From: a virus
DNA: 21,150 bases
Virus record (IMG/VR): IMGVR_UViG_3300009185_000131
Location: 1 to 21,150 of that record
Direction: 5' to 3' (one strand)
The notes under the pieces were generated by a model. That model made no database searches. It had not been told where the DNA came from and saw only the letters and a list, made by a program, of their open reading frames with translations. Below, in pieces: positions 1-19,219 of this stretch. The first letter of the stretch is position 1. Every line of letters begins with the position of its first letter. The position numbers were made by a program, and so were the translations under genes.

Positions 1-327
1 ATCAGCTGTTGGCTCTCCTATAGTAATAACATTTTTGCCGACGATAGTGTTATAAGAACCTCCTCCAGAGTATTGTACTAAAGCATTTGGAGTGGATATA
101 AAAAGATTCTTGTTGGGTTTGATGGATATATCCCCAGGAGCTTTCATTGCAATAAATCCCTGAGCATTTAAATCAATTTGAGCTCCAGCATTTTGATACA
201 AAGATACATAAGAATTATCACTTTGCATACCAGATAAATTTCTTACATTAGAAATAAAATGCAACCCACCAGAAGGCATTACTACTGAATTAGTTCCATT
301 ACGAGATCCATTGTCTGATATATCCAT
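1..327 (-). CDS. Baseplate spike-like protein, partial (C-terminus beyond window)
   Basis: The reading frame opens with ATG at 327 and runs without a stop to the window edge, giving 109 N-terminal residues. The protein is rich in Gly, Asn, Ser and short alternating hydrophobic stretches, for example FIAMKAPGDISIKP and NVITIGEP. Such periodic short strands are typical of the beta-helical C-terminal part of T4 gp5 and of VgrG-like spikes. It follows directly after a gp5-like gene that lacks this part, so it probably supplies the needle of the baseplate hub. A TCTAAATA element lies 6 bases upstream of the ATG and no Shine-Dalgarno sequence is visible. Another repetitive virion protein, such as a tail fibre or other baseplate component, is possible because the diagnostic C-terminus is missing. 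Confidence 0.6.
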   Translation of the reverse strand, partial: MDISDNGSRNGTNSVVMPSGGLHFISNVRNLSGMQSDNSYVSLYQNAGAQIDLNAQGFIAMKAPGDISIKPNKNLFISTPNALVQYSGGGSYNTIVGKNVITIGEPTAD

Positions 328-361: not shown

Positions 362-1753
362 CTAAATTGCTTTGGAACGAGAAGGTATTAATTCTGTATT
401 TGAGCCATCTGGGTTTGTTGGCAAATTTAATTCATCTTCATTATTACGCGTTGGGCGCTGTAAATTGGGTTTTGGTACTAACTGTTTGTGCACTTCTGCT
501 GGAGGACTTACCGGCACAGCCTGATCTCTTGCATTAGCATAGGCTTCTGTTACAGAAGCAAAATATACAGGTTTTTGTAAATCTCCATTTAAAAAGAAAA
601 CCCAAACCATATTACCAGGCTGAGGAACAGAATTAGAACCTTGAGGCAATTTATAATTTGCACCCTTTCCAAAAGAAACCTCTTCTCGTGGACCAGAACG
701 ATAACCGCCAGTGTGCACTTCGGCAGCTTCTCGAGTGCGGGATGATGTTGTTTTACTATTATTACCGTTATAATAAGCTAAATCTTTTTCAGAAAATCGT
801 TCTGTAAACTTATTTCCATTTTTCCAAAAATCTTTTAATAATCTTATTGTTTCTTCGCCATATAAACCAACTTGATTTGTTGTTCTTCCGGTCATATCTG
901 CCACACTTATATTTTTTGAAGTTCTTCTAAATGTATTTTCCATCAACGCCATTCCAGCTTTGAGACCTACTGTTGGATCTTTTAATCTTTTATTCATACT
1001 ATCATCTACTCCATAATTCGACATTACGGTGGAATTTTTGGGTATATTTCCATCCGACAATGAAAAAAGTCCCATAGAAACTTGGCCCTTTGCTTCTCCT
1101 TGTGTTTCTGTCATACTATCCAATGGATTAAAACTACTTTCAAATGCTATAACCGGTATAATAAAATTATCTACATAATCTTGAGGACTGGTAAATGTTG
1201 AAGAACCTGAAGTACTATCTCTAGGTCTACCAGCTAGAGCTTCTTGAATATTTAACCAATTGTTTGTAGCTATTTCCAGAGCCAATGATCTAACTTCATT
1301 TGGTTTAACATATGGAACGTATGATCCGGGGAATTCATATATCTGTAAATCATTTAAAACAAATGGTTCAATTTTTTCAACCGGTGCACCAGATCTAGCT
1401 CCGAGAGCATTAGATGCTACTTTAAGATTATCAATTTGATGAGCGAGAATTGGGGTTGCAGCAGGTTCTGTTTTTCCATTTTGTCCTACAATTGTAGTTC
1501 CTCCAGATCCCAATAAAGGTCTTGCAGCTTCTGCCCAAGGTAAATTTTCTCTCAAAGATTTTCCAACTGGATGATCTGGATTAAGATATTCTTGAAAGGT
1601 TTGAGCATCTAATTTTATGTCAGTTGCTTTGACATTCCATTGTTCCAATAAAGTAGTAGACAAATGAGGAATAAGAACCTGGACTCTTCCTCTACCTTCC
1701 GGATCCAAGCTGTTTATTATAACTCCTATATGGTTACCGTATTGATAATTCAT
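362..1753 (-). CDS. gp5-like baseplate hub protein with OB fold and inserted lytic transglycosylase-like domain
   Basis: This 463-residue protein begins like T4 gp5, with GVIINSLDPEGRGRVQVLIP (residues 10-29) matching the first OB-fold strands and NLPWAEAARP (70-79) matching the T4 stretch LPWMSVIQP. The closing OB strands appear only at PGNMVWVFFLNGDLQKPVYF (379-398). Between them, about 190-335, sits a lytic-transglycosylase-like domain: FESSFNP (204-210) with Glu205 as candidate catalytic acid, MGLFSLSDG (227-235), DPTVGLKAGMA (259-269) and YYNG (327-330). In T4 gp5 the lysozyme domain follows the OB fold, so this order is unusual. The role is trimerisation in the hub under the tube and local peptidoglycan cleavage during injection. 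A strong ribosome binding site, TAAGGAG, ends 10 bases before the ATG. The C-terminal 50 residues are Pro-rich and probably a linker. Confidence 0.8.
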   Translation of the reverse strand: MNYQYGNHIGVIINSLDPEGRGRVQVLIPHLSTTLLEQWNVKATDIKLDAQTFQEYLNPDHPVGKSLRENLPWAEAARPLLGSGGTTIVGQNGKTEPAATPILAHQIDNLKVASNALGARSGAPVEKIEPFVLNDLQIYEFPGSYVPYVKPNEVRSLALEIATNNWLNIQEALAGRPRDSTSGSSTFTSPQDYVDNFIIPVIAFESSFNPLDSMTETQGEAKGQVSMGLFSLSDGNIPKNSTVMSNYGVDDSMNKRLKDPTVGLKAGMALMENTFRRTSKNISVADMTGRTTNQVGLYGEETIRLLKDFWKNGNKFTERFSEKDLAYYNGNNSKTTSSRTREAAEVHTGGYRSGPREEVSFGKGANYKLPQGSNSVPQPGNMVWVFFLNGDLQKPVYFASVTEAYANARDQAVPVSPPAEVHKQLVPKPNLQRPTRNNEDELNLPTNPDGSNTELIPSRSKAI

Positions 1754-1754
1754 T

Positions 1755-3215
1755 TTATTTATACTCCTTAGAAACCATGCTAGTTTTTAAAGCCTTTACA
1801 AAATGATTTGCATTACCAGCTGCTTTTCCTAAATCATATGCAGATTTATTAAAATAATAATTTCCAGATGGATCTATCAAAGAAGAAAAAGAATTTTTTA
1901 GACCTGATAATGTAAATTCCGGAGTTCCGTCTGGCCGCAATTTTCCAAAAGCAAACAAATTAGGATTAACTTTGCCTAATAATTCATAAGGAACATTTTT
2001 TGGGTAAAAAGACATAGGACCTTTAAATTGAGGAGTTCCGGATCTATTCCACTTAGATGAAGGCACCGCAGTTCCAAAACTATCCATAACTGGTTCTAAT
2101 TCACCCAATTGAGAACCCAAACAATAATGTTTAATAATTGCGTTTGCAATAGCAAGAGCAGAACTGCTTCCTTTAGCACCAAAACTAAATCCTTGAATTA
2201 AAAATCCCATGAATTGTTCCGGTATCTGTCCTATAGAATTAATAAAATTAGCCAATGCCTGAGCTTGTTTAGGCAAAACATATTGCGCCACTCCCACAGT
2301 AATAGGATGCTCAATCACATTAATGACCTCAGAACCTATATTAACCACAGTTTGAAATATATTAAGAATCCTAAAAAGGTTGTCAGAACCATTGAACAAA
2401 GACCCGAAAAAAGCTATATCATCAATAAGAGTTTGAATAGCTGAAAGAACTAAACATACTATAGTTATTACAAGTAAGGCTCTACTACCTCTACCCAGAA
2501 ATTTATTAACAAGCCAGGTTTCTATTAAACCTATAACATGATTTATAAATAATTGAGCCTGTAAAGCAGCTAATTGCATGCCTTGATATAAATCCAACAT
2601 GGCTTGTCTAAAACTACCAATAGCATTAGATAAAAAATGTACAGCTTCAGTTATGCCACCAAATTGACCAATAGCTGTATTGGTCAAATAAGAATGAGAA
2701 TTAATACTTTCTACCCAATCTCCTATAGCATTAGCCCATTCAGAACCCGATTCTGCCAAAATAGCATCACAATTAGGAGGTAGATGAGTTCGGGGACCAT
2801 TAATGGGGTCTTTTTGTCTCATCCCCATCAATCTAACCAATAAACCCGGAACTGGATATTTTAATTGTCCAGATTTACCAGCCGGGGTCTTGGCTGTAGC
2901 ATTTGCCAGTATACCAGCATGGTCTAGATGTCCACCTGGTTTGATTAATTCATTGTAAAAATCTTTATTTGCAACCGCTATTTCATGCCCATCAAAAGCA
3001 AATGAATCTCCTAAAATTTTATAACCCCTATTCAATATATGCAAAGCAGCACAGTATTTATTACCCACATTAGTACCACCTAAAATGCCTTGTAATAATC
3101 CCAATTCTGTATCATTCAAACCAGTCAATTTTTCTTCATCCACAACTTTAAATTGTTCCGGTGTATGAATGACTACATTAGATTCGTTATATTGTCGTGA
3201 ATTACAAGAGGCCAT
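1755..3215 (-). CDS. Hydrophobic virion-associated protein of unknown function (baseplate region)
   Basis: I do not recognise this 486-residue protein. Its N-terminal 150 residues are mixed and include a His/Gly-rich stretch (PGGHLDHAGILANA, 93-106). From about 185 to 365 it is long, helical and hydrophobic, with one stretch strong enough to be membrane-spanning (ALLVITIVCLVLSAIQTLI, 246-264) and further amphipathic segments to 345. The C-terminal 120 residues are polar and rich in Gly, Pro and aromatics. It lies between the small cysteine-rich gene and the gp5-like spike gene, so a virion role near the hub is likely. A hydrophobic protein at this place could contact the host membrane during injection, but that is inference. 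There is no signal peptide. The start ATG follows the upstream stop by 4 bases (GGTAAATATATG). Confidence 0.6.
   Translation of the reverse strand: MASCNSRQYNESNVVIHTPEQFKVVDEEKLTGLNDTELGLLQGILGGTNVGNKYCAALHILNRGYKILGDSFAFDGHEIAVANKDFYNELIKPGGHLDHAGILANATAKTPAGKSGQLKYPVPGLLVRLMGMRQKDPINGPRTHLPPNCDAILAESGSEWANAIGDWVESINSHSYLTNTAIGQFGGITEAVHFLSNAIGSFRQAMLDLYQGMQLAALQAQLFINHVIGLIETWLVNKFLGRGSRALLVITIVCLVLSAIQTLIDDIAFFGSLFNGSDNLFRILNIFQTVVNIGSEVINVIEHPITVGVAQYVLPKQAQALANFINSIGQIPEQFMGFLIQGFSFGAKGSSSALAIANAIIKHYCLGSQLGELEPVMDSFGTAVPSSKWNRSGTPQFKGPMSFYPKNVPYELLGKVNPNLFAFGKLRPDGTPEFTLSGLKNSFSSLIDPSGNYYFNKSAYDLGKAAGNANHFVKALKTSMVSKEYK
1756..1763 (-). promoter_or_regulatory. TATAAATA element abutting the gp5-like start
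   Basis: TATAAATA, identical to the T4 late promoter -10 core, lies 2 bases before the ATG, between the Shine-Dalgarno sequence (TAAGGAG, 1764-1770) and the start codon. A T4-type promoter here would start transcription inside the gene, so a promoter for this gene is doubtful. The site is listed because the same TAARTA core recurs at other starts. Confidence 0.3.
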
Positions 3216-3219
3216 ATAT

Positions 3220-3534
3220 TTACCATTTTCCTATAGGACATTTTTCAGCTGTTAACATAGTTTTAGCAGCCATATAACATCCACACTTTTTACATCTTTG
3301 TTGTTCTTTATCAAAAAAAGAACATTCATTACAAATATTTAGTCTACTTTGCTTTTGTGTATCAGAAACTTTTAAATTATTACCTTCTAACACACTTCCT
3401 ACATTTCTTATAATGCTGTCAGAAACATTACGAGCCATAGTAGCTAATCCCGGAGTGCCGTTGGAGGATGGCTTCCAAGCTGGCAATCTAGACTTTATTT
3501 CTTCTAGTCGCTTTTTTAATTGTTCTTTATCCAT
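3220..3534 (-). CDS. Small cysteine-rich putative zinc-binding protein
   Basis: This 104-residue protein has a charged helical N-terminus (1-17), a middle region of low complexity, and a C-terminal cysteine cluster: C68 and C71 (CNEC), C81, C84 and C86 (CKKCGC), and C99 in the terminal motif CPIGKW. Small phage proteins with this C-x2-C / C-x2-C-G-C / CP-x-GKW pattern occur in many myovirus genomes near tail genes; the function is unknown to me. The spacing suggests binding of one or two zinc ions. It starts 3 bases after the stop of the gp27-like gene and ends 4 bases before the next start, so it is translated as part of the baseplate operon. It could be an assembly factor or a minor virion component. 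Confidence 0.7.
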   Translation of the reverse strand: MDKEQLKKRLEEIKSRLPAWKPSSNGTPGLATMARNVSDSIIRNVGSVLEGNNLKVSDTQKQSRLNICNECSFFDKEQQRCKKCGCYMAAKTMLTAEKCPIGKW

Positions 3535-3537
3535 AAT

Positions 3538-5265
3538 TTAAGGGGCTATATTATTTTTACCAGTTTCATATATCTTGCTATAACTATCTATTTTGGTGCA
3601 AATTATATCATTAGTATAAGAATTTTTTGTAAAAAAATGTACTACTTTAACAGTTAACCACTGACCGAAAAATCTATCATCAAAAGAATTTTTTTCTGGT
3701 ATGGGTCTGTATATATGTAAAAAATTTCCTGGTTTTCTAATAATTAAACCTGGTATTTGAAGATACAAGGCTTGATTTTTATAAACTAAATTTTTTAACA
3801 TTTGCATTCCGGTAAGATTTGATGAAACAAAAGGTTGTGTAACAAACTTATATTGAGTATTTAATCCACTAAGTTTAGTTTGATTAGTGTTTAATAAAAT
3901 CTGAGCATTTTTATTATTATTTTTAAAATTAAACAATCCTCCACCCATTAAAGTAGCATTTTCTATTACATCTGTAATTTTATTATTAGCAAATCCTATT
4001 TCATACTGAGACAGATTAAATTTAAATTGAACCACAGGACTGTTAGCAAACTCCGCATCATCCACAGCTACCATGGGGGCGAAATGATAGTTATCAGCAA
4101 CGGAAGCAATTGGAGAATTAAAATTGTTCATGTCTGGTTCATTGGGGTCCATAGAACTAAAAGCTCTTTGACCAACGTCTACAGCCGCATCAGAAGCTGC
4201 ATAATCTCTTATTATAATTTTTTCTTTTTGTAATTTTTTTGAATTTTTGTAATAGTCTGCTAAAGGAATTAAAGTCCATCTTTTATCTATTTTTCCTGTA
4301 TATCCAGTATTTGCCTTTATATCTTCACCAGGCATACCTCTACTACCTACTTGTAATATCAAAGGTGACGGATTAACAGTATTTGAAGAAGTTGCATATT
4401 TTAAAATATAATTTATATCATCCAATATAGTACTATTTGCTGGAGAATTATATAATATTTTACTTTCCGGGTCTCCTCCATCCCATTTAGAGTCGTCTAT
4501 ATTTAAAATAGATAAATTAGGTTTATCTATAGAGCCAGTTTCATCATAAGCCATTTTTAAAGGAACATTTGCCATAGTTTCTAAAGTTCCACTATTGGCA
4601 TTGAGTATAAGATGTTTTAAAATTAAACCAGCTGGTACACTTTTTTCAGAATCATAGGCTAAATTTAAATCCAACACAGTACCTTCTAATTCTTTTATTT
4701 TTCTAGCTATGTTTCCAGAACTCCATTGCAAATATCTTTCTGAAAAAATTTGATGACGTATATCTTTAAAATAAAAAGTTCTTAATTTTTTAAAATTGTC
4801 TGTAGAAGTGTCTTGAATGTCATATATGCTACAATCAAAAGACATGACCCAATTTTCAGCTTTTAAAGTGGTTTGAGTTCCTTTGGAGCCGGTTTCATCA
4901 TCAATATAAGGATATATTTTAAAACTAATTAAATTTCTTCCATCTGTTCTAAAATTTAAAAAACCTGGCTGAGTTGGAGTTTGGCTATATCCTTGGATAG
5001 AACTGCCAGATTTAGATGCATAGGTACCCCTCTCTAAAATTTCATTCCAATTTTCTATAGTAATATATCCAGTAATATTCCAATCATATAAAGTTTCTTC
5101 TATACATAATTGATCTACGGCAGCAAACGGTAACTGATAAGGAGGTTTGCTTATATCATAATTATACATCCATATTTCTATCCAGAAAAAATCTGTTCCA
5201 ATTTGATATACAGATTTTGTTTGACCAGAATCTTCTATTCCTCCTATAGAAAAACTATTCGCCAT
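3538..5265 (-). CDS. gp27-like baseplate hub protein
   Basis: This 575-residue protein has an N-terminal beta-rich domain (about 15-75, with PYQLPFAAVDQLCIEETLYD) and a C-terminal domain holding QIPGLIIRKPGNFLHIYRP (503-521) and GQWLTVKVVHFF (535-546) followed by a Tyr-containing strand. That C-terminal pattern, a small beta domain with PG before a strand and then a 'G-x-W-hydrophobic' strand, is typical of gp27/gpD-like hub proteins that form the ring on which the spike sits. The length exceeds T4 gp27 (391 residues); the middle is a family-specific insertion. Its ATG lies within the end of the preceding tube-like gene (11-base overlap), which suggests coupled translation. The gp5-like gene two genes downstream supports the hub assignment. 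Identity is too low to judge by eye, so another baseplate protein cannot be excluded. Confidence 0.6.
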   Translation of the reverse strand: MANSFSIGGIEDSGQTKSVYQIGTDFFWIEIWMYNYDISKPPYQLPFAAVDQLCIEETLYDWNITGYITIENWNEILERGTYASKSGSSIQGYSQTPTQPGFLNFRTDGRNLISFKIYPYIDDETGSKGTQTTLKAENWVMSFDCSIYDIQDTSTDNFKKLRTFYFKDIRHQIFSERYLQWSSGNIARKIKELEGTVLDLNLAYDSEKSVPAGLILKHLILNANSGTLETMANVPLKMAYDETGSIDKPNLSILNIDDSKWDGGDPESKILYNSPANSTILDDINYILKYATSSNTVNPSPLILQVGSRGMPGEDIKANTGYTGKIDKRWTLIPLADYYKNSKKLQKEKIIIRDYAASDAAVDVGQRAFSSMDPNEPDMNNFNSPIASVADNYHFAPMVAVDDAEFANSPVVQFKFNLSQYEIGFANNKITDVIENATLMGGGLFNFKNNNKNAQILLNTNQTKLSGLNTQYKFVTQPFVSSNLTGMQMLKNLVYKNQALYLQIPGLIIRKPGNFLHIYRPIPEKNSFDDRFFGQWLTVKVVHFFTKNSYTNDIICTKIDSYSKIYETGKNNIAP

Positions 5266-5881
5266 AATATTGAGTGTTTTCTCCTACATTAGCTAACAAT
5301 TCCACATGAAATTGGCTATAAGCAAAAGAGGCTGTGCAGGAAATAATGGTTTCATCTTGATGAGAATAATTTAATTCACTTAAAGAACTAATATAAGCAT
5401 CTACATATTTAAAAGAGACAATAGGATTATTATATTCATCCAAAGCTAATAAATTTATATTCGTTGTAAAATCAAAAAAAGTATTACCTATAATTCCATT
5501 GTCTGAAATGTCTTTGGTTAAATCTATGCGTCGTTGTAAAATTACATCTGTGGTTCCATCAAAAGAATCATTGAAATGGTTTAACCATTTCCACAAAATC
5601 CAATAATTCATATAACCGTTATCGATTAAAAATTTTAAATTTAAATCTGGATAAGCTGGTCTGGAGTGAGATGAAACACTTACATTTTGCCCACCATATG
5701 CCAAATTTATAGTAGGTATTTTAATAGCTGGAACCGGAGAACCAAATACCGTAAACTGTACTGTGTCTGGATTTTGCTTGTTTTTAATAACTGGGTCTGA
5801 TTCTCTTTTAAGAATAAGAGGAAGATCCATAATTAAACTAAATTTATCTAACCTTGATCTATTTAAAATTGATTGTTCCAT
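5255..5881 (-). CDS. Tail tube-like (gp19 fold) protein, third copy
   Basis: The open frame extends to 5935, but that would overlap the terminase by 53 bases. The ATG at 5881, one base after the terminase stop, gives a 208-residue protein and is the likelier start. Its layout resembles the tail-tube fold: FTVFGSPVPAIKIPTINLAYGG (43-64), a Tyr/Trp-rich helix (NYWILWKWLNHF, 92-103), a strand region (TNINLLALDEYNNPIVSFKY, 140-159), then DAYISSLSELNY (161-172) and a final pair of strands ending FAYSQFHVEL. In gp19-like proteins the segment before the last strands reads as 'a-i-x-l-x-x-l-x-y', as here. Beside the hub gene it could be a tube initiator or adaptor ring between hub and tube (comparable in role to T4 gp54 or gp48). 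The tube-like fold is inferred from pattern only. Confidence 0.55.
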   Translation of the reverse strand: MEQSILNRSRLDKFSLIMDLPLILKRESDPVIKNKQNPDTVQFTVFGSPVPAIKIPTINLAYGGQNVSVSSHSRPAYPDLNLKFLIDNGYMNYWILWKWLNHFNDSFDGTTDVILQRRIDLTKDISDNGIIGNTFFDFTTNINLLALDEYNNPIVSFKYVDAYISSLSELNYSHQDETIISCTASFAYSQFHVELLANVGENTQYYGE

Positions 5882-5882
5882 A

Positions 5883-7775
5883 TTAAAATAATATAATTTG
5901 TTTATAGTCTTCTTTATACATTCCTTCCAAGGCATCTGCTGTCATAAATTCTGGCTCTGCTGGTTTGTAAGGATCTATATTTCGATCATTGTATGCCACA
6001 GTATGTAACCAATTCCATAATTGACGAGCTTCGTTATCTTGCTCGTTTTGAGGAGTAGGATTAATCATCACTGGCATAGTATTAATTACCCTATTTCTTC
6101 GAAACAACCCAGAACCACCCACTAATAATGGACTTTGTTTTAATAAATCTTTATTATCATACAAAGAAACCATTTCTTTAGGTCTTCCTTGATCATCCAT
6201 ATCAATTATTTGAAAATAATTTTGAACTATACTGGGATTTAAAATAAACAAAGCCCAAATACAACCAAATACCCTATCATCTAAATCTTCTTTAGTTTGT
6301 TTGCTATAAGTTTGATTAGGCAATCTTACAAAAGTATGAAGTTCTTTAATAGTTTCTGGATCATAAAATTTAATGGCTCTTAGACTATTACACCAATATC
6401 TAAAATTACTGATTCCATTGTATCTAGTAGTTGTATGACTATGAATACCTTTACGATTCTTGGTATTGTAATGAACACTATTTCCTTCTAAAGTGTAAGA
6501 AACTAAATTTTCATAGTTGTGGGTATGAAATACAACATCTATAACCTGATTGCCATTATTATTATTTTCAATTAACACTGGTGGTCTACCCCAGTCATTC
6601 AAAACCCCTAATAAACGAGTACCAAAATGATATGGACTAATAGTATTAGAAGCATAAACCGCTACCTGTTCTATTTCTTGTAAATTAGTTATGTCAAAAA
6701 CCTGAGCCACTGTATTAGAACGACCAATACCTTCTCCTACGTCTACCCCCATTACATAATGTCTTCCCACCTCTGGCATTTTATATATTAGATATTTGCC
6801 TTCATCTAAAACCATACTAGGTTCTGGACAATTTTTTAATTGTTCTAGTAAATCTGGATCTACAACAGATCTGCCTGGAGTTATAAACTGGTTACCAAAT
6901 TCTTGATCAAAGTCTTCTTGGCCCCTCCCTTCAGAAGCCAGTAATTCCACGGCATCTGCTTTCCAAGATTCATCTCGGCCAGGAACATCCCACCAATCTA
7001 CTCGTTCCGGATGCCACATACTATCTGATTTTTGAGCAATTTGCCAGAGTTGATAAAATTTATTATCGGTTCCGTTAGCAGTACTGATTAAAATAATTTG
7101 AGACTTCTGCGATTGAATAATAATTGGAATAGAAGATCTCCAGAGCTCTGCCATGTCTTCTGGAGGACAGAAAGCCATTTCATCAATAATCAATAAGTTA
7201 CTAGAACCGCCACGAGGGCCTGTGGAAATGGTAATAGAAGAGTCATTGGTTAAATCTAAACCATCTTTGCGCCAAGATTTAATACTCGGTTTGAGATAAA
7301 TTGGTAACATTTCATAAGCAGTTTTAATACGAGCAAAAATTTCTTTAGCAGAATCTGCTTTGTATGAAATAATAGTTACTCGCTTATCTTGTTGAAAACA
7401 GACATACCACAGGGCGTAAATAGCCATGGTGGTAGTTTTACCACTTTGACGAGAGGATAACAAAATAGTAAAACGTTCTTTTTTAAAAGTTTTGAGAAGA
7501 TGTTTTTGATATTTGTAAAGACTGATTTTTTCCTTACCTCTATCCAAATGAGTAATAGTGTAATGAGCTTCTGCAAAATGAAGTATACTTTTATGGCAAA
7601 GTTTAAAATCCTCTTGCATCTCCGGTGTCCACTTGAACACTGCATTCTTGGTACGGAGAATATTCTCATTCCCCTTATAAAATTTACCATCTACTAAAAT
7701 GTCTTCTGCCTGTAAATCATCTAAGGAGAACTCATCTTCTTCTTCACCATCTTGCTGTTTAGGTCTACGGCCCAT
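5883..7775 (-). CDS. Terminase large subunit (gp17-like DNA packaging ATPase/nuclease)
   Basis: This 630-residue protein is the motor that pumps DNA into the capsid and cuts it to length. The ATPase domain shows Walker A SRQSGKTT (108-115), Walker B LLIIDE (194-199) with the catalytic Glu199, and the coupling motif STANG (231-235). The RNase H-like nuclease domain shows GVDVGEG (343-349, Asp345), LIENNNNG (401-408, Glu403) and DLDD (497-500). An acidic stretch opens the protein (9-20). T4 gp17 has 610 residues, so it is full length. The C-terminal 80 residues are variable. The gene sits between baseplate genes rather than beside portal or small terminase genes, neither of which is in the window. 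The ATG follows the stop of the gp53-like gene by one base, so the two are probably co-translated. Confidence 0.95.
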   Translation of the reverse strand: MGRRPKQQDGEEEDEFSLDDLQAEDILVDGKFYKGNENILRTKNAVFKWTPEMQEDFKLCHKSILHFAEAHYTITHLDRGKEKISLYKYQKHLLKTFKKERFTILLSSRQSGKTTTMAIYALWYVCFQQDKRVTIISYKADSAKEIFARIKTAYEMLPIYLKPSIKSWRKDGLDLTNDSSITISTGPRGGSSNLLIIDEMAFCPPEDMAELWRSSIPIIIQSQKSQIILISTANGTDNKFYQLWQIAQKSDSMWHPERVDWWDVPGRDESWKADAVELLASEGRGQEDFDQEFGNQFITPGRSVVDPDLLEQLKNCPEPSMVLDEGKYLIYKMPEVGRHYVMGVDVGEGIGRSNTVAQVFDITNLQEIEQVAVYASNTISPYHFGTRLLGVLNDWGRPPVLIENNNNGNQVIDVVFHTHNYENLVSYTLEGNSVHYNTKNRKGIHSHTTTRYNGISNFRYWCNSLRAIKFYDPETIKELHTFVRLPNQTYSKQTKEDLDDRVFGCIWALFILNPSIVQNYFQIIDMDDQGRPKEMVSLYDNKDLLKQSPLLVGGSGLFRRNRVINTMPVMINPTPQNEQDNEARQLWNWLHTVAYNDRNIDPYKPAEPEFMTADALEGMYKEDYKQIILF

Positions 7776-7776
7776 A

Positions 7777-8136
7777 TTACCTATTTACTTGAGACCGCAG
7801 TTCTTGCAAAACATACCCCACATATTCTGGATTTAATAATTTAATACTAGTTCCGGCTTCTGGTAATTGCGTAGGATCCATTATTTGATTATAAGAGCAA
7901 ACCAGCCACCATAGTTCTAAAGTTTTGTAAAATTTATAAGAAATATAATACCAAGTATCTCCTGGTGATATGTTATAGGTAGATTGAACGTCTGAATTGT
8001 CTGTTTGAAATATGTTTATGGAACGCAATACATTATAAAATAATTCTTGAGTCCTGTCATCTTGATAGACATTAAAAAAATTTTCATATCTATAAAAAGA
8101 AAGTTTAGGAATATTATCTATTTGATTCTGGTTCAT
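7777..8136 (-). CDS. gp53-like baseplate wedge protein with LysM-like domain
   Basis: This 119-residue protein has a helical N-terminal half (FNVYQDD around 21-27, ELFYNVLRSINIF 31-43) and a C-terminal LysM-like domain (about 50-102): YNISPGDTWYYISYKFY, then LELWWLVCSYNQIMDP and LPEAGTSIKL. The pattern 'PGDT-x-x-x-I-S-x-K-x-Y ... WW ... N-x-I-DP ... L-x-x-G-x-x-I' is that of T4 gp53 and related baseplate wedge proteins, where the LysM fold takes part in protein contacts rather than wall binding. It is shorter than T4 gp53 (196 residues). It lies directly upstream of the terminase gene (one-base gap) and 7 bases downstream of the tube-cap-like gene. Confidence 0.75.
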   Translation of the reverse strand: MNQNQIDNIPKLSFYRYENFFNVYQDDRTQELFYNVLRSINIFQTDNSDVQSTYNISPGDTWYYISYKFYKTLELWWLVCSYNQIMDPTQLPEAGTSIKLLNPEYVGYVLQELRSQVNR

Positions 8137-18421: not shown

Positions 18422-19219
18422 ATGGGAAACAAACCCCGTTCTAAGAGCCGGCTTTTGGATGACTCTGTCAAACCAGAAAAACCAAAAGATAATTCACCTC
18501 ACGTCTTCCAGCGCGATAAAGTAAATTTTGACTTTACTATTAGAGAATTACCCTGGACAGATAAACAAAAAGAACTTATACAAATTCTTTTAAATAAAAA
18601 TACCAAATGTGTTTTTATAGAAGGCCCTGCTGGAGTTTCAAAAACTTCAACAGCAGTATATGCTGGGTTACAATTATTAAAAAACAAAAAAGCCTCTGAT
18701 ATTATTTTTGTTAGAAGTGCGGTAGAAAGTGCTGATAGTAAAATTGGATATCTTCCAGGAACCATTGATGAAAAATTTGAAGCTTATATGGCTCCATTCA
18801 TAGAAAAGATGGAAGAGTTCTTAGAAAACAACACCATTAAAAGATTACATACCGATAAAAGAGTTAGTGCTATGCCAGTAAACTATATAAGAGGATTACA
18901 CTGGCCGGCTAAAGTAATCATTGTAGATGAATGTCAAAATATTACTTTTCGAGAATTAGTAACCACCATTACCCGATTGGGTGAATTTTCCAAAATTATT
19001 TTTCTAGGAGATCCAAATCAATCAGATTTGCCACACGGCAAAATGGGTGGATTTAGCAAGATGTGTAAACTTTTTTCAGACCAAGAAAGTGCTGATCACG
19101 GAGTATATCATTTTAAATTTGATAAAGAAGATATTGTGCGTTCTGAATTTGTAAAATTTGTAGTAGGAAAAATAGAGGATGGTTCACCCCATTCTCATGA
19201 AATGTTTCCTAGTAATTGA
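18422..19219 (+). CDS. phoH: PhoH-like P-loop ATPase
   Basis: The 265-residue protein has a basic, polar N-terminus (1-30) and a PhoH ATPase domain from about 40: Walker A GPAGVSKT (68-75, Lys74), the family motif FVRSAVES (96-103), PGTIDEKFEAYMAP (112-125), Walker B VIIVDECQN (165-173) and GDPNQSDLP (196-204), the PhoH version of the sensor motif. In most family members the Walker A is GPAGTGKT; here Ser73 replaces the Gly before the Lys. PhoH-like proteins are widespread in phages; bacterial relatives have ATPase and RNA-unwinding activity, while the phage role is not established. A few T4-like relatives place phoH near structural genes. It may act in RNA metabolism during infection. Stop is followed within 11 bases by the zinc ribbon gene. 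Confidence 0.9.
   Translation: MGNKPRSKSRLLDDSVKPEKPKDNSPHVFQRDKVNFDFTIRELPWTDKQKELIQILLNKNTKCVFIEGPAGVSKTSTAVYAGLQLLKNKKASDIIFVRSAVESADSKIGYLPGTIDEKFEAYMAPFIEKMEEFLENNTIKRLHTDKRVSAMPVNYIRGLHWPAKVIIVDECQNITFRELVTTITRLGEFSKIIFLGDPNQSDLPHGKMGGFSKMCKLFSDQESADHGVYHFKFDKEDIVRSEFVKFVVGKIEDGSPHSHEMFPSN

Follow-up and report, generated by a model that had tools for sequence, protein, structure and literature searches.

A probable central-spike protein of an uncultured T4-like myovirus with a DslA-like lysozyme domain inside its OB fold

The spike gene and its neighbourhood

The stretch of DNA analysed here in full (the window) comprises 21,150 bases of record IMGVR_UViG_3300009185_000131, an uncultured virus in IMG/VR. 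The spike gene occupies the minus strand as an open reading frame of 463 codons, the same interval on the plus strand being full of stops (Table 1). The entire protein matches PF04717 with 28.6 bits, above the cut-off of 23.8, and residues 371-412 match phrog_430, annotated as "baseplate hub subunit and tail lysozyme" (E 1.2e-6). The motifs quoted in a preliminary description of this DNA are all found in the 463-aa protein: LPWAEAARP at residues 71-79, ESSFNP at 205-210, MGLFSLSDG at 227-235, DPTVGLKAG at 259-267, YYNG at 327-330 and NMVWVFFLNGD at 381-391. Two sibling contigs, IMGVR 3300014819_000813 (L001) and 3300009151_006129 (L004), carry relatives of the gene, and the gene order is common to both.

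Table 1. Positions in the window of the spike gene, its predicted parts and the adjoining needle gene
Feature	Positions	Strand	Basis
gp5-like spike protein, split OB and inserted lysozyme domain	362..1753	-	463 aa; ORF, PF04717, phrog_430
OB fold, N-terminal part, residues 1-85 (first strands through LPWAEAARPLLGSG)	1499..1753	-	OB HMM 10-40 and 49-77; PF04717 2-32
Variable N-side linker, residues 86-149	1307..1498	-	sibling identity collapses past about residue 90
DslA-like lysozyme-superfamily domain, residues 150-345	719..1306	-	hhalign, AF2 model, Foldseek/VIA
E205, predicted catalytic acid, ES motif (= DslA E143)	1139..1141	-	invariant in 3 inserts and 18 DslA homologues
E216, predicted second catalytic acid (= DslA E154)	1106..1108	-	alignment
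S226, S-x-G-L motif (= DslA S166)	1076..1078	-	invariant in 21 sequences
Variable C-side linker, residues 346-368	650..718	-	low sibling identity until about 368, high beyond
OB fold, C-terminal part, residues 369-410 (VPQPGNMVWVFFLNGDLQKPVYFASV)	524..649	-	OB HMM 70-102; PF04717 44-72
Variable Pro-rich C-terminal tail, residues 411-463	365..523	-	32-50% aa identity among siblings
Downstream gene, 5' part, probable needle (beta-helix)	1..327	-	ORFs; weak DUF2345

The surrounding genes form a T4-like structural neighbourhood, with T4_baseplate, gp19-like tube and T4-type terminase matches, and the virus is read as a contractile-tailed phage. The large terminase gene (5883-7775, minus strand) sits within the tail/baseplate block, where its neighbours are a LysM/baseplate-wedge-like gene (7777-8136) and a tail-tube-like gene (5255-5935) that overlaps the 3' end of the terminase gene. 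A PhoH-like ATPase gene (18422-19219, plus strand) is divergent from the structural block. A candidate hub gene at 3538-5265 has no family match, and its assignment as a relative of the hub-like protein of Slickus was rejected for want of any similarity. Between the candidate hub and spike genes lies a gene for a Cys-rich protein of 104 aa (3220-3534, minus strand; DUF6171/phrog_13558), which is 100% identical in all three contigs despite its varying neighbours. The C-terminal 43 residues of this small protein occur also in four unrelated phages (L011-L014), in which no spike relative was found.

The needle is probably encoded by the separate gene downstream. This gene runs off the window from its start at 327, and is complete in L004 and L001 with 660-662 aa; repeated short beta-rich segments can be recognised by eye in the sibling genes, and DUF2345 gives a weak match in L001 (E 0.027). 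The complete genes (L001 6061-8049, L004 6093-8075) also contain the cysteine motifs CPTCG and CGPGC and a conserved HNH...DEH region. The spike chain itself ends 53 residues past the OB fold, with no C-terminal beta-helix in the same chain. A needle in the same chain is not required of all gp5-type spikes.

The OB fold is split

The first and last parts of an OB fold had been proposed to enclose the middle region, and this reading was borne out by three lines of comparison. PF04717 matches the window spike in two ordered pieces, model positions 2-32 at residues 9-39 (window 1637-1729) and 44-72 at residues 371-399 (window 557-643), and the same two-piece pattern is found in both sibling spikes. 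The pieces are about 330 residues apart, rather than forming the contiguous OB followed by further domains of the T4 type. A second profile (OB HMM) was built from contiguous spike OB folds, namely those of T4 gp5, the Vibrio phages Va1 and phiKT1024, the Alishewanella phage Slickus01, and locus L041. It matches the window spike in three stretches in order, model 10-40, 49-77 and 70-102 corresponding to residues 8-38, 69-93 and 373-405. Joined together, the flanks reach 35.9 bits, whereas the highest score among 5000 shuffles is 7.5. The C-terminal half (model 70-102) is strong at 20.8 bits; the first OB strands taken alone are weak at 2.3 bits, but their order and the LPWAE motif are still consistent with the fold. 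Finally, the central spike of Anabaena phage A-1(L) (PDB entry 8kea_D; PMC10966104) has the two matching stretches 11 residues apart, compared with 334 in the window spike.

The predicted split point is the loop preceding the last two OB strands. The profiles show the OB fold interrupted by about 280 residues, in which flexible linkers enclose a predicted DslA-like lysozyme domain; shortly past the OB the chain comes to its end. An AF2 model of the full-length spike, made with the three-sibling alignment, reached a pLDDT of only 34.7; the split therefore rests on the sequence profiles and on the unsplit relatives. Among these are five T4-like phages picked solely by terminase similarity (pf16, S-SRM01, SRB7757, phiN3 and phiM9), in each of which the OB model finds a single unbroken stretch of 225-303 bases, so that among the phages sampled the insertion is a property of the window's phage group. 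The OB is also contiguous in Slickus01, Va1 and phiKT1024.

The inserted domain belongs to the lysozyme superfamily

The middle region had been described as resembling the soluble lytic transglycosylases rather than T4 lysozyme. A peptidoglycan-cleaving fold unlike that of T4 is upheld, while the nearest relative proves to be DslA, a GH23-like lysozyme, and not an SLT in the strict sense. With hhalign, the insert and the lysozyme domain of T4 gp5 share no similarity (probability 0.2, E 0.32, 8 aligned columns), and the comparison with E. coli Slt70 alone is insignificant, though the motifs lined up. In contrast, the insert aligns with the DslA family over 79 columns (probability 95.6, E 1.2e-8). 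When the three inserts were made into a profile and run against the whole set of PDB sequences, DslA entries alone were matched (E 0.11). A DslA-family HMM, for which 22 relatives were gathered from bacterial genomes, gives the window insert 18.2 bits, while the highest-scoring of 6000 shuffles reaches 8.8; it finds no match in the L004 insert alone. The reverse search provides an unbiased test: the full phage profile, run against 291 Bdellovibrio-phylum genomes, hits only two places, both in DslA-family genes and both in the catalytic core. Two divergent DslA-like lysozymes from Bdellovibrio-phylum genomes (L064 and L065) are picked up by the DslA profile as well as by that of the phage inserts, and L065 has a short hairpin like that of L001.

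An AF2 model of residues 150-350 (pLDDT 70.5) displays the lysozyme-superfamily fold, with a helix (41-57) that bears E56, corresponding to E205 of the whole protein, and a hairpin (64-66/76-78). It matches DslA (Z 9.2), Slt70 (Z 9.0), MltE (Z 8.2) and other lysozymes, with a GH124 cellulase tied at Z 9.3, and DslA is the top match in Foldseek; since the alignment behind the model contained DslA homologues, the likeness to DslA and its rank are partly built in. The lysozyme-superfamily fold of the insert is, however, supported also by the sequence evidence, beyond the model with its DslA bias. A BFVD fold search returned weak matches only, several of them to SLT or tape-measure proteins. A GST_C match in one sibling was rejected as below the cut-off and inconsistent with the domain model.

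Predicted catalysis

DslA needs both E143, in its ES motif, and E154, which is held by S166 (PMC7511926). Their predicted counterparts are listed in Table 1, and the spacing of E205 and E216 (+11) is the same as that of E143 and E154. The second-acid position is Asp in L001 and Glu in L004. Five residues, E205, S226, G228, Y247 and P260, are invariant over the three inserts and 18 DslA homologues. The insert would thus probably cut hydrolytically, E205 serving as the acid and E216 as the base.

The alternative that the insert is a true lytic transglycosylase (GH23 SLT), leaving anhydro-MurNAc ends, holds a minor yet real share of the probability. SLT (PF01464) is the only Pfam family matched by the window insert (14.2 bits, below the cut-off of 21.3; E 0.033), the domain model matches Slt70 and MltE at Z 8-9, and the order of the motifs, ES followed by G-L-(M/L/F), is the SLT order. 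The nearest sequence, however, is DslA, a two-acid hydrolase; lytic transglycosylases lack the second acid (PMC7511926), and an acid aligns at that position in all three inserts. As both DslA acids align in the window (E205, E216), a hydrolysing lysozyme is favoured, and "transglycosylase" may be the wrong chemistry for the insert, in which the second acid seems to be kept. It is a good deal less probable that the insert no longer cleaves peptidoglycan and serves as a binding or structural decoration, free to drift. The inserts are only 31-39% identical, with indels, and the motif context in L004 is loose (AETVDSENLGF), as would be expected of drift; but the inserts and the DslA homologues alike retain the catalytic Glu, the second acid, S-x-G, Tyr and Pro, and the sibling reading frames are intact.

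Variation among the sibling contigs

The siblings share near-identical OB flanks around very different inserts. The gene upstream of the spike is 91% identical in the sibling comparison. Amino acid identity to the window over spike residues 1-87 is 98% in L001 and 85% in L004, and it rises to 100% in both siblings over residues 369-410, while the pairwise identities of the three inserts are 31%, 39% and 32%. The breaks in identity are sharp and fall near residues 90 and 366. At the DNA level, the window is 96-100% identical to L001 just upstream of the spike and through the N-terminal OB half; its needle gene is 96-99% identical to that of L004, but 65-79% to that of L001.

Variable patches are seen in other genes as well. 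In the gene upstream of the spike (486 aa), a patch at about 2421-2521 (minus strand) has 64-73% nucleotide identity among the siblings, against 80-100% elsewhere. The candidate hub gene (575 aa; about 4000-5300, minus strand) is a further hot spot of divergence: its middle has only 69-86% nucleotide identity to both siblings, which are mutually 86-100% identical.

The likeness to L001 upstream and in the N-terminal OB half, and to L004 in the needle gene, makes a mosaic of the kind typical of recombination, although the three contigs at hand do not fully separate recombination from fast divergence in place. The variation behaves as if the insert were an exchangeable enzyme cartridge across three otherwise near-identical phages. 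That no cassette is exchanged, and that the insert diverges where it stands under strong diversifying selection, is rather doubtful: the three inserts are homologous and occupy the same position, and their GC content is near that of the flanks, but the flanks are highly identical on both sides of an insert that has large indels and about 45% nucleotide identity, and the window resembles L001 in its N-terminal half and L004 in its needle gene. An assembly chimera, to which one might turn because all three records are uncultured IMG/VR contigs, is scarcely credible, as two more contigs, named as coming from two different IMG data sets, have the same architecture with intact frames.

Comparison with known systems

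We conclude, with a probability of roughly 0.8, that the gene encodes the central-spike (gp5-type) subunit of an uncultured T4-like myovirus, with a split OB fold and a DslA-like lysozyme inside it. T4 gp5 likewise joins a spike OB and a lysozyme-superfamily domain in one chain. Its lysozyme, however, comes after the complete OB and before the beta-helix, as the preliminary description correctly held, and proteolysis cleaves the T4 chain (PMC3004832). The window spike differs in that the enzyme lies inside the OB and has no similarity to T4 lysozyme, and in its needle, probably a separate gene product; the cleavage into gp5* and gp5C would then be replaced by two genes.

DslA (Bd0314 of Bdellovibrio bacteriovorus, PDB 6TA9) is the closest sequence relative of the insert, with E143, E154 and S166 all matched. 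It is a free-standing cellular enzyme, specific for GlcNAc-deacetylated peptidoglycan, and has two disulfides, C117-C253 and C182-C199 (PMC7511926), which have no counterpart in the window spike, a protein with zero cysteines. The Anabaena myophage A-1(L) (PDB 8KEA) has an OB spike, gp25, that resembles the window OB, and wall-degrading domains in its baseplate; its lysozyme, endoglucanase and peptidase domains, however, are in the hub gp15 and not in the spike OB (PMC10966104). In phiKZ, gp181 also brings a peptidoglycan glycosidase (lysozyme or lytic transglycosylase) into the cell-puncturing device; it is far larger, at 246 kDa, and the accessible portion of its account does not describe a spike-OB insertion (PMC5380687).

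Relatives of this arrangement are few. With tblastn, neither the full spike protein nor the insert found anything in phages, and short OB pieces used as queries gave weak leads only, the useful ones being Slickus01 and Va1-type phages. Scans of viral contigs returned only the two siblings, L041 and four unrelated loci, and a scan of genome contigs by full-protein alignment found nothing. At the search sensitivity used, no DslA-family lysozyme was found in phage tails among 50,697 phage records. The literature searched, with most subscription papers outside its scope, contained no account of an enzyme placed within a spike OB. Taken singly, the spike lysozyme, the spike OB fold and the DslA-type lysozyme are all familiar; neither the nesting of one in another nor an insert that varies while the ends around it stay constant was found in that literature.

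Proposed mechanism and significance

Three spike subunits would form a barrel, the trimeric OB docking under the hub, and the strands that touch hub and needle and close the barrel would stay constant. Three lysozymes would hang from a surface loop, each tied to the barrel at both ends by linkers, one of about 60 residues and the other of about 25. Once the sheath has contracted, the needle, made from its own gene, would cross the outer membrane, and the lysozymes would then cut the glycan strands, allowing the tube to reach the inner membrane. The near-identical OB ends could act as homology arms, so that recombination swaps the enzyme and spike assembly goes undisturbed.

A broader proposal can be offered only speculatively, and is more likely wrong than right: the OB may be a dedicated docking chassis whose loop ahead of the final two strands takes up interchangeable peptidoglycan hydrolases through recombination, including DslA-type enzymes for modified (e.g. 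deacetylated) host walls, which would make the choice of tail lysozyme an evolvable host-range trait apart from the receptor fibres.

The customary picture of a spike lysozyme is a bead on a string, placed behind the OB fold. An enzyme within the barrel, variable between constant ends, would mean that a loop of the OB can accommodate large domains, and would suggest that phage tails are under selection from the chemistry of the host wall. The DslA lysozymes, a family of cellular bacteria, would moreover gain members in phage tails.
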